From Parcubacteria group bacterium (GTDB taxonomy: Bacteria; Patescibacteriota; Minisyncoccia; Phycocordibacterales; JABMOB01), in the NCBI GenBank assembly GCA_013204345.1, contig JABMOB010000008.1:1-37174 (forward strand): a DNA stretch of 37,174 nucleotides. Reading direction: 5' to 3'. The notes under the pieces were generated by a model, which had not been told where the DNA came from, did no database searches, and saw nothing but the letters and a program-made list of their open reading frames with translations. Both the position numbers and the translations under genes were made by a program. Each line of letters opens with the position of its first letter. Position 1 is the stretch's first letter. Positions 1 through 35,966 of the stretch are shown piece after piece.

Positions 1-345
1 GTACTCGCCAGTGCGTGGGGCTTTCTCCGAGCGTACGATTTTGGTCAGAGCCACCACGCGCTCCGCGCGTGGCACATCATTTGTTTTGAAAATAGGTTCG
101 AGCTTGGTACAATAAAGACACAAATAAGAAAAATACCCGGTGAACTCTGGTATTTTTCTATATTTTGCAAGGATAGGAAGCACAAATTGCTTCCGTGGGG
201 GAATCGAAGCCTGATTGAGCCCCTCACCCAGTCGTAAAAGACTGAATCAATAACACTTATTGTTAAGAGAAAATATTATTAGCTGGGTGAGGGGCCAATC
301 AGGGTACTGCTCCTGTAAGGAGAGGTTCCCCCATCCCGCACCAGT
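1..345. other. Cluster of inverted repeats, no gene recognised; possible structured RNA
   Basis: This stretch holds no convincing coding frame but many stem-loops. Seen directly: a 7-bp stem 54-60/66-72 (ccacgcg/cgcgtgg); an 11-bp stem 127-137/149-159; a 6-bp stem 176-181/189-194; a long stem 210-231/283-303 (cctgattg..gcccctcacccag against ctgggtgaggggccaatcagg, one bulge) whose loop holds two mini-hairpins (230-233/240-243 and 248-253/257-262); a small hairpin 310-314/318-322; and an outer 8-bp stem 196-203/326-333 that closes the last two into a multibranched fold. I could not match it to tmRNA, RNase P RNA, SRP RNA or tRNA. It could be a strand-specific RNA, a nested repeat insertion, or the end of an element that began before the window. 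Confidence 0.4.
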
Positions 346-33514: not shown

Positions 33515-33685
33515 TTTCTCTTCCTTTCCGTGTGGTCGTATGTCATTTTGTACAATGTTTCTATTTTAGCTTATATTTTTTTGTCTTTAGTTTCAAAAAT
33601 AGTTAATAGTTTAAATTGACGAGGTGATTACTTACAGGAGTAGACTTTTTTTGTCACTTGGGTTACAATCGTTGTCAATTACTAA

Positions 33686-33697
33686 AGGCTTCGGCCT
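33686..33697 (+). promoter_or_regulatory. UUCG hairpin in the fusA leader
   Basis: AGGC-TTCG-GCCT, an extra-stable cUUCGg tetraloop, is followed by ATTTTATTATT and then ATG 33709. TACAAT at 33664-33669 could be the -10, placing the hairpin close to the mRNA 5' end. No Shine-Dalgarno lies between hairpin and start. Confidence 0.5.
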
Positions 33698-33708
33698 ATT
33701 TTATTATT

Positions 33709-35850
33709 ATGAATAGAGATTACCCATTAGACAAAATCAGAAACTTTGGAATCATTGCTCACATTGATGCCGGCAAAACCACCACTTCCGAGCGTGTTTT
33801 GTTTTATACAGGAATGTCCCATAAAATCGGCGAAGTGCACGACGGTGATACAGTGACAGACTGGATGGAACAGGAAAGAGAAAGAGGTATTACTATCACC
33901 TCTGCTGCTATTACTTGTTTTTGGAATCCCTCATATATGGGGACTGATGTTTCTAAAAAAGTTCGTTTCAATATTATAGATACACCTGGGCACATTGACT
34001 TTACTGCTGAAGTAAAAAGATCACTGCGTGTTTTGGACGGTGCGGTTGTAGTTTTTGATGGTGTTGCTGGTGTAGAACCTCAATCAGAAACAAACTGGAG
34101 ATATGCTGATGACGGTAATGTGTCAAGAATTTGTTTCATAAATAAACTTGACCGAATGGGTGCAAACTTTGAGCGATCTTACGCGTCAATTCTTGATCGT
34201 CTTAGTAAAAAAGCTGTAAGAATGCAGATCCCGATGGGATTGGAAGAAAATTTCAAAGGTGTTATTGATCTTCTAAAAATGAAAGCATATTATTTTGAAG
34301 GGGAAATGGGAATTATCGTTAAAGAAGAAGAAATTCCCGCAGAATTTGCAGAGGAAGCAAAAAAATATCGAGCGGAACTCATCGAAAAAATTGTTGAACA
34401 AGATGATACTCTCATGACTGCTTATCTGGAAGGTAAAGAGCCATCCTTTGAAGATTTAAAAAGAATACTTAGAAAAGCTGTGATAGATGTAAAAATTATT
34501 CCAGTATATGCTGGTTCAGCTCTTAAAAATAAAGGGGTTCAGCTTGTTTTAGATGCTGTGGTGGATTATCTTCCGTCCCCCGTAGATATGCCTCCTATTG
34601 TTGGAGTTCACCCTGATACCGGCGCCGAAGTTATTCGTCATGCTTCTGATGAGGAACCTTTTGCTGCTCTTGCTTTCAAATTACAAAATGACCCATTCGT
34701 TGGTCAGCTTACATTTTTCCGTGTATATTCAGGAACAATTGAGGCTGGTACGTATGTTTACAACTCCACAACTGGCGAGAAAGAACGTCTAGGCCGTATT
34801 GTTCGTCTTCAAGCCGATAAACGCGAGGAGGTAAAGAAAGTTTTTGCCGGAGAGATTGCTGCCGCCGTTGGTTTGAAAAGCGCAAAAACATCTCATACTT
34901 TATGTGATGAAAATGATCCGATAATCCTTGATCCAATCAAATTTGTTGAGCCTGTTGTTTCTTTGCGTATTGAACCAAAAACCAAAGCTGATCAAGAAAA
35001 AATGGGTATGGCTTTGAAAAAACTTTCTGACGAAGACCCAACATTCAAGATTAGTTCAAATATTGAAACTGGCGAAACTATCGTTTCCGGTATGGGTGAG
35101 CTTCACTTGGATATTATGATTGATAGAATGAAAAGAGAATTCAATGTGGAGGCGAATATCGGTAAACCACAAGTAGCATACAAAGAAACCATTACAGATG
35201 AAGCGGAAGCTGAACACAAGTACATCAAACAATCTGGAGGTAAGGGGCAATATGGTCACGTCAAGATTATCTTTAAACCATTGGAGCCGTTGGATCCAGA
35301 AAAGAAACTTCCTAAAAATGTACATCGTTATGATGATTTTGAATTCATCGATTCTATCAAAGGTGGGGTTATTCCTCAGGAATTTATTCCAGCTGTTGAA
35401 AAAGGTATTAGGGAGGCTATGGAGCGTGGAATTGTGGCTGGCTACAAAATGGTAAATGTTTCAGCCGAACTTACTTTCGGTTCTTACCATGACGTGGACT
35501 CATCTGAAATTGCTTACAAAATTGCTGCATCTCAAGCATTTCAGGACGGAGCAAAAAGAGCGAAGCCTGTTATCCTTGAGCCGATTATGAAAATTGAAGT
35601 TGTTTTCCCAGAAAAATTTATGGGAGACATCACTGGAAGTCTTTCTTCAAAACGAGGGCAGATTGAAGGTATGGAAGAGCGAGGGATGTTGCGAGTTATA
35701 AACGCAAAAGTACCGCTTTCCGAAATGTTTGGTTATACAACTCAGCTTCGTTCTATGACAGAAGGTCGTGGAAATGCAAACATGGAATTTTCTCACTATG
35801 AAGTTGTGCCGAAAAACGTAGAGTTAGAAATTATTGAAGCACGTAAGTAG
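33709..35850 (+). CDS. fusA: Elongation factor G
   Basis: 713 residues from ATG 33709 ([20 protein letters not shown]); the frame opening at 33658 runs through the leader hairpin and is discarded. GTPase motifs are intact: AHIDAGKTT (G1), RGITI (G2), DTPGHIDF (G3), NKLDRMG (G4). Domain II follows ([20 protein letters not shown]), then domain III, domain IV with [12 protein letters not shown], and domain V ([20 protein letters not shown]). It drives translocation with GTP. The last codons ([14 protein letters not shown]) are repeated, diverged, 72 bases after the stop, with a palindrome between. tuf is not adjacent. Confidence 0.98.
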
Positions 35851-35884
35851 GGCGAGTAAAAAATCTATATATAAGCACTTCTCG

Positions 35885-35922
35885 CCCCGTGATGACTCGC
35901 CAGTCAGCGAGTCATCACGGGG
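35885..35922. repeat. 16-bp palindrome between fusA and its 3'-end relic
   Basis: CCCCGTGATGACTCGC (35885-35900) and its exact inverse (35907-35922) around CAGTCA. It shares CTCGCCCCGTG with the palindrome before clpP (6565-6575) and ACTCGCCAGT with the window start (3-12). Confidence 0.8.
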
Positions 35923-35966
35923 TGCCAAAAAATGTGGAATTGGAAATTATAGAATCTAGGAAATAG
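35922..35966 (+). pseudogene. Relic of a fusA 3' end
   Basis: Codons from GTG 35922 to TAG 35964-35966 encode [14 protein letters not shown], matching the fusA end [14 protein letters not shown] (35806-35850) in 13 of 14 residues. At DNA level 11 of 45 positions differ, and eight of the nine changed codons are synonymous. This is the pattern of two coding copies that diverged under selection, not of a fresh duplication. It has no start and is not a gene. Most likely the upstream fusA, or its end, was replaced by a homologous copy and this is the leftover tail of the older one. Confidence 0.8.

Follow-up and report, generated by a model that had tools for sequence, protein, structure and literature searches.

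What are the first 345 bases of this contig, which hold a dense series of stem-loops? A sequence-only reading of the same DNA had described the region as rich in stems, free of reading frames and foreign to the known RNA families, and had offered that it could be a new structured RNA or nested insertions of repeats. The window analysed here is the entire 37,174-base contig, so its base 1 is a contig end, and it comes from a genome of 756 kb in 47 contigs.

A structured region made of two parts

All of the stems were recovered. An inverted-repeat search yields helices of 8 bp (54-61/65-72), 11 bp (127-137/149-159) and 13 bp (219-231/283-295). The last is extended past one bulged A by 210-217/296-303 to give 21 bp together, and it lies inside an outer 8-bp stem (196-203/326-333), as the earlier reading had it. 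Two further stems, one within 175-194 and one at 310-313/319-322, were found in predicted folds. The minimum free energy of bases 1 to 345 on the plus strand is -137.1 kcal/mol, compared to a mean of -94.4 for shuffled sequences (z -8.07; 0 of 100 shuffles as low). The minus strand gives a z of -6.45, and bases 160 to 345 of the plus strand folded alone give -7.88 (0 of 200 shuffles).

No open reading frame of at least 80 amino acids, the threshold for listing, overlaps the region. Rfam searches at gathering score returned no family anywhere in the window, and nothing credible appeared below that score in bases 1 to 450, so the description of the region as lacking both genes and known RNAs holds. 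The reading had also noted that ACTCGCCAGT at 3-12 recurs within a palindrome. A second exact copy is present at 35895-35904, and this recurrence is weak against shuffles: three sites occur at up to one mismatch, a number that 2 of 100 shuffled sequences reach. The palindrome, CCCCGTGATGACTCGC...GCGAGTCATCACGGGG, occupies 35880-35925 behind the open reading frame at 33658-35850. Near the other end of the window, a reverse-strand frame at 1036-1767 encodes a TrmB-type regulator domain (PF01978), and the frame that follows the region, at 401-988, has no Pfam match.

When the 345 bases are used as one query, matches are found in 33 of 60 relatives and fall into blocks. Parts of 1-122 and of 167-343 are found separately in other genomes, which rules out a single RNA of 345 bases. 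The region is instead two separate things, the right part of a repeat (1 to about 122) and a copy of a structured element (about 167 to 343). Each of the two explanations offered earlier therefore applies to one half: the right half, with covariation and no Rfam match, behaves as a new structured RNA, the left half as a dispersed repeat, and neither description fits the region as a unit.

The left half is a dispersed repeat that is now placed in front of the element. This repeat, called repeat A here, is supported by a BLAST search of bases 1 to 130 against ten loci. The window holds its right part on the plus strand (1-122), truncated by the contig start, and the many matches in relatives are often at contig ends as well. 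One locus (L029) is without exactly bases 31 to 75, and the block 26-71 is found on its own in other loci. Within repeat A, the inverted-repeat pair CCACGCGC/GCGCGTGG makes a REP-like hairpin (54-72), and a promoter-like TTGAAA-16-TACAAT (86-113, plus strand) is oriented toward the element. The latter is a consensus match only, at 10 of 12 bases, from a search that found two sites compared to a mean of 0.5 in shuffled sequences. Repeat A often starts directly after the CCA end of tRNA genes, for example, at the end of contig C43 of the same genome and at three loci elsewhere (L276, L284 and L028), and its left end resembles GAAYAGAACTYARRGG. Thus, repeat A too may prefer tRNA 3' ends.

Conserved structure of the element

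Copies of the 167-343 family occur elsewhere with neighbours that differ from repeat A. Eight of these copies define a structure of 29 base pairs that none of 500 shuffles equals on any measure. A covariance model (R1) built from this structure finds 14 matches at E up to 1 in the window's own genome. In a draw of 148 genomes from the same order, it matches 78, with up to 20 matches in a single genome.

Covariation in the right-half element is strong. Across 122 distinct sequences found with this model, changes on both sides are seen in 26 of the 29 pairs, a result that none of 500 shuffles equals. Paired cells make up 94.9% of the total, compared to 71.1% in shuffled sequences, in an alignment that was fitted to the structure and is biased toward it; controls with the structure slid along the alignment drop to 31-51%. 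The shared helices are P2, P3, which joins an antisense arm to the second copy of a tRNA end, P4, with one bulged A and a loop that varies, and P5, whose loop resembles TGTAA. In the window, where the whole copy is read on the plus strand, P2 is a hairpin at 175-194, and all six of its pairs change on both sides. P4 spans 210-303, with paired strands 210-217/296-303 and 219-231/283-295, the bulged A at 218 and a loop at 232-282, and it also covaries. P5 (310-322) reads CTCC-TGTAA-GGAG and has four pair types at most positions.

The remaining mismatches carry information about the strand. Among non-Watson-Crick cells in 97 sequences, G-U occurs 82 times and A-C 31 times, an excess that favours an RNA made from the plus strand. 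In P4, 18 of the 23 G-U cells come from one pair, and P5 alone has no bias (3 to 5).

Location behind tRNA genes

A DNA pattern that uses only the letters of the core retrieved 97 stretches of named public contigs with 102 cores. A tRNA 3' end on the same strand is found at most 130 bases upstream of 79 of these cores, where chance would give 1.6%. Ten others have a tRNA at 131-700 bases, three lie at the edges of their stretches and ten have none within 700 bases. The tRNAs ahead of the cores in this set represent 31 anticodons. In the first set, 97 of the 119 model matches were carried into the analysis of tRNA distance, and 75 of these 97 lie within 70 bases behind a tRNA. One copy in the window's own genome, on contig C12, follows the tmRNA, and several copies without a tRNA have terminator-like hairpins ahead of them. 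This association was invisible to the earlier reader because the window holds no tRNA gene.

Bases 167 to 343 are very probably a member of a covarying element (P2, P4 and P5) that, in one order of Paceibacterota, follows genes for tRNA and tmRNA. The 5' part of the element is complementary to the 3' strand of the tRNA ahead of it, and its 3' part is, or was, a copy of that strand.

The titles of the contigs found with the core pattern mostly name Taylorbacteria, Zambryskibacteria, Nomurabacteria, Kaiserbacteria, Parcubacteria, Paceibacterota or Patescibacteria, or give no group. Two titles (Gottesmanbacteria and Elulimicrobium) name groups other than Paceibacterota or Patescibacteria, perhaps through mistakes in binning or naming. 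The element is seldom met outside the order: it was found in 23 of 334 genomes drawn from the class, 7 of the 23 outside the order, and in 7 of 332 genomes drawn from the phylum, all within the order; both draws used stricter filters, and their counts are lower bounds. A viral origin is ruled out, as the core pattern is absent from viral contigs.

Antisense arms follow the neighbouring tRNA

The nine bases that precede the core are complementary to positions 57-65 of the tRNA ahead of it. On average, 8.08 of the 9 bases pair with the locus's own tRNA, compared to 5.31 with shuffled tRNAs (72 of 75 loci, 2000 shuffles, shuffled maximum 5.79). Most units have a copy of tRNA positions 57-73 behind P5, which is kept in full in 25 of 71 loci, scores below 14/17 in 32 and falls below 10/17 in 14. 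When gaps are allowed, the antisense arm fits the tRNA better than it fits the second copy in 40 loci, worse in 2 and equally well in 29. The imbalance of 40 to 2 gives a sign test value of 4e-10 for loci that are not fully independent. This comparison skipped 4 of the 75 loci, and it counts both reversals although they look like wrong anchors. An ungapped version gave 27 to 1 with 44 equal and 3 of 75 loci skipped; some of its rows were anchored wrongly, for example by mistaking TGTAGGG of the tRNA copy for the P5 loop.

A pair of genomes from one genus (G031 and G108) provides a direct example of this tracking. Their tRNA-Lys genes differ at one acceptor base, and the antisense arms behind them, GGCGCCCA and GGCACCCA (L066 and L104), differ to match. 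The second copies have decayed at both loci. The combination of antisense and copy can also be counted without any model. It is present at 8 of 29 tested tRNAs in the window's own genome, 15 of 38 in G101 and 4 of 35 in G023, and control counts with the ends of other tRNAs are 0.12%, 0.50% and 0%, respectively. In three genomes without model matches it is found at 0 of 51 tRNAs, counting the tRNAs within 30 loci.

An arm might also follow its tRNA without having any function. Together, the tRNA 3' end, the intervening hairpin and the arm make up a quasi-palindrome, in which replicative template switching could keep correcting the arm as a mere bystander. Many of the tRNA-arm hairpins are near-perfect palindromes, and the arm does track the tRNA and not the more distant second copy, as such a process would have it. 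However, P2 splits the arm, and in 51 of 72 loci the portion on the far side of P2 still makes a perfect match to the T-stem. Covariation in P2, P4 and P5 would also be left unexplained, and we consider this explanation improbable.

Decayed second copies, such as those at L077, L081 and L057, recurrently have one or two extra bases in their T-loop part (CGAATATCCC for CGAATCCC), and look as if they had been altered in a set way.

The probable tRNA partner of the window copy

The antisense arm of the window copy, GGGGGAATC at 197-205, which is the 5' strand of P3, is the complement of positions 57-65 of tRNA-Gly(UCC) at 9 of 9 bases. Bases 324-343 are a copy of positions 57-73 of this tRNA followed by CCA, with 324-332 as the 3' strand of P3, and match it at 15 of 16 bases over positions 57-72. 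Both fits are the best among the tRNAs of the genome that were ranked. Ahead of P2, bases 167-174 (GCAAGGAT, compared by eye to ATCCCGC) may be a weak remnant of an arm complementary to the acceptor 3' strand, and the 11-bp hairpin at 127-159 sits in the same place as the hairpin between tRNA and element at other loci.

The tRNA-Gly(UCC) gene is on another contig of the same genome (C43, G000:C43:7327-7397). This contig stops just over 110 bases after the gene, within a repeat. A repeat located directly behind a tRNA in another genome shares 97% identity with it. Another copy of the element in the window's genome shows a similar arrangement: the element on contig C34 fits best to tRNA-Leu(GAG) on C19 (8/9 and 16/16), and C19 also stops nearby in repeat sequence. 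In a different genome (G054, locus L028), tRNA-Leu(GAG), a repeat with the same promoter-like block and an antisense element are all found on one contig, and the core of the element differs. The partner of the window copy is most likely tRNA-Gly(UCC), parted from it by an inserted repeat that carries its own promoter-like site. The window most likely starts inside this repeat, at a junction that we infer between tRNA-Gly(UCC) and its element.

Relation to known systems

To our knowledge, the RtT repeats of E. coli are the sole known relative of the element in layout. RtT (RttR, RF00391), in the tyrTV operon, consists of tandem units behind a tRNA. In each unit, a folded core is combined with an antisense segment and with a copy of the 3' end of the tRNA, and a small RNA is processed from the tRNA transcript. 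At the E. coli locus (NC_000913.3:1286200-1288000, L317), the antisense segment GGGGAAGGAT lies ahead of the core and is the complement of ATCCTTCCCC in the 3' end of tRNA-Tyr. We know of no report of this segment, and its place among the features of RtT is an observation of the present analysis. The Paceibacterota family likewise has an antisense segment ahead of its core, resides behind tRNAs and carries a copy of their 3' ends; for the window copy, the position behind a tRNA holds only by way of tRNA-Gly(UCC) on another contig.

RtT follows one tRNA in E. coli, whereas the Paceibacterota element follows tRNAs with 31 anticodons. The RF00391 model has no match in 17 Paceibacterota loci at E up to 1 or in bases 1 to 450 of the window at E up to 10, and as a control it gives four matches in the E. 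coli locus. Together with the Rfam searches of the window and loci, this result rules out a known RNA family. The kind of element is known from RtT-like repeats trailing tRNAs at one locus; what is new is a conserved RNA that is spread over many kinds of tRNA. A literature search found no report of the Paceibacterota element, although most subscription papers were outside its scope and it is no proof of absence in print.

Other known systems share single features with the element. The 3'ETS-leuZ RNA of E. coli is a tRNA 3' external spacer RNA, derived from the trailer that follows the tRNA in its transcript, and the Paceibacterota element would resemble it as an RNA from a tRNA trailer. We know of no such spacer RNA that is antisense to its own tRNA or that has a core conserved across many tRNAs. 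Mobile elements integrated at tRNA 3' ends (attL/attR) have a copy of the tRNA 3' end at their far edge, as the Paceibacterota element does, but the latter is about 150 bases long, has no genes and includes an added antisense arm. REP and MITE sequences are dispersed, palindromic and intergenic. Repeat A has all three properties and fits this description well, whereas the element at 167-343 keeps a covarying core of several helices and adapts its arms to each tRNA. TIGR arrays, which have Parcubacteria among their sources, are tandem small-RNA units as well; as described in PMC12045711, they carry box C/D motifs and paired spacers, where the element has tRNA-derived arms and P2, P4 and P5. Judged by eye against that description, a TIGR D box would be CTGA, and the window has CTGC.

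Possible action on the tRNA transcript

We propose that this covarying, tRNA-trailing element acts as an RNA in cis on the tRNA transcript and spreads as a repeat, and we give this statement as a whole an even chance. Polymerase would read past the tRNA into the element, and the antisense arm would then draw the T-stem and the acceptor 3' strand of the tRNA into one long hairpin. An intact second copy could pair with the antisense arm instead, or could complete the tRNA body. The element would thus operate as a strand-exchange trap or switch on tRNA maturation, and would move as a repeat between tRNA loci. For the switching step, in which the element would take hold of the tRNA 3' strand in cis, our confidence is somewhat short of even.

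Joint folds of tRNA, gap and element are compatible with such an exchange. In these folds, the acceptor 3' strand finds its partner downstream in 60 of 75 loci and keeps its own 5' strand as partner in only 2, and in 53 loci the second copy is the partner of the tRNA 5' strand; the energies are for bare secondary structure and leave out tRNA tertiary structure, modification and the order of folding. The folds suggest that a read-through RNA could swap the tRNA 3' strand for the second copy, with the antisense arm kept matched to the tRNA itself.

Several observations count against a role in cis. A crude scan for terminator-like sites in the 75 loci found none before the element or within 70 bases behind it in 42, sites only before it in 24, only behind it in 5 and on both sides in 4. 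Because a terminator-like site lies between tRNA and element in 28 of the 75 loci, the element may often escape transcription from the tRNA promoter. The second copy appears decayed in many loci, as its scores attest, and 10 of 102 cores have no tRNA in the 700 bases upstream. Occupancy is also patchy and turns over within a genus, unlike that of an essential part.

Another explanation is an independent small RNA, made as its own transcript or cut from the tRNA transcript, that acts in trans, for example as a sponge or as a protein-directed tRNA mimic, and uses its tRNA-like ends only as aids to processing. The promoter-like site in the window points toward the element, and RttR of E. coli is annotated as a separate small RNA. 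However, action in cis is favoured by the way in which the antisense arm tracks the tRNA next to it, and we judge a trans-acting RNA to be distinctly improbable.

Proposed spread of the element as a repeat

Close relatives differ in which tRNAs carry the element. G108 has a unit behind its Gly(tcc) tRNA that the congeneric genomes G148 and G031 lack at this tRNA. Behind tRNA-Pro there are two units in G108 and one in G031, and the extra unit adjoins the tRNA. Exact tandem units occur. In G101, P2-P4-P5 modules are found inside another core type (L253 and L282), at GTGGAGG^AAAACC and GTCGGG^AAACGGG, and look as if they had been inserted there. Similarity between cores within a genome is 0.705, compared to a permuted mean of 0.668 and a permuted maximum of 0.706 (73 of 75 loci). 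Cores behind tRNAs with the same anticodon in different families score 0.657, compared to 0.665, and descent by tRNA locus across families is unsupported by this test.

No protein was found to be associated with the element. Of 25 element-rich genomes, 18 have a gene for Y1 transposase and 9 one for reverse transcriptase; of 17 element-poor genomes, 8 and 6 do, respectively. Dependence on either enzyme in the same genome was rejected for lack of association. A mobile repeat of the REP/IS200 type would be expected to have a Y1 transposase in every carrier; for the tRNA-trailing element, the enzyme is missing from 7 of the 25 element-rich genomes. A scan of 1.32 Mb of loci found 135 paired cores and no larger copies bearing cargo. 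It also gave 26 half-matches without a partner, which on visual inspection resembled complete copies that are diverged or chimeric.

The main rival to a function in cis is a selfish non-coding repeat. Such a mobile unit would settle behind tRNA-like 3' ends with the arm as a homing or guide sequence and the second copy as a duplicated target, and the host would gain no benefit. A guide must match the tRNA rather than a by-product copy, as is observed. Presence and absence within a single genus, cores slightly more alike within a genome but not by tRNA across families, nested modules, exact tandem units and orphan copies without a tRNA are all in keeping with such a repeat. However, the lack of an associated protein and of cargo, together with the missing core pattern in viral contigs, tells against it, and a guide tied to one tRNA fails by itself to explain spread to others. 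We regard a purely selfish repeat as possible, if doubtful.

The same data bear on an integron-like recombination site, wherein folded single-stranded DNA would be used by a recombinase and the tRNA ends would be attachment sites. The element is an imperfect inverted repeat with extrahelical hairpins, and the new unit behind tRNA-Pro arises at the tRNA-proximal end of its array. The ratio of 82 G-U to 31 A-C cells points instead to RNA, and cassette cargo was not seen. We find this reading highly improbable and keep to an RNA that acts in cis on the tRNA transcript and spreads as a repeat.

Maturation of tRNA 3' ends relies on a small set of conserved enzymes, and the element points to a hitherto unknown RNA-level link with tRNA making. 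A repeated RNA that is complementary to the end of the tRNA it follows, and that reaches up to 20 copies in a genome of one megabase, would represent either a so far unrecognized level of control over tRNAs or a new non-coding lifestyle on tRNA genes. The tyrT repeats of E. coli gain a much larger set of relatives in layout, and function becomes testable by comparison.

Other core types

Some tRNAs are followed by other core types with the same layout of antisense, core and copy (L216, L221, L222, L228, L229, L233, L253, L258, L260 and L270). They were recognized by eye, as types II, III and IV, and include, for example, one with GGGGTCGGGAAACGGGAGTTTCCCGTGGAGG and one with GAGTCGGGGTCG...CGTGACC; none has an Rfam match at gathering score. 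Tentatively, Paceibacterota might carry a class of small RNA elements of several core types written around the 3' ends of tRNA and tmRNA, as a general system that captures nascent tRNA 3' strands or homes to tRNA genes by complementarity.

Two loci (L031 and L164) have a further unannotated stretch upstream of the element. It has no Rfam match, is about 150 bases long, looks RNA-like and ends in a tRNA-like 3' end, and it is alike in the two genomes, with the pattern ..AAGTCCGGAATTATGCC..TCTCGGATATTTCGGAG..GGGCA.
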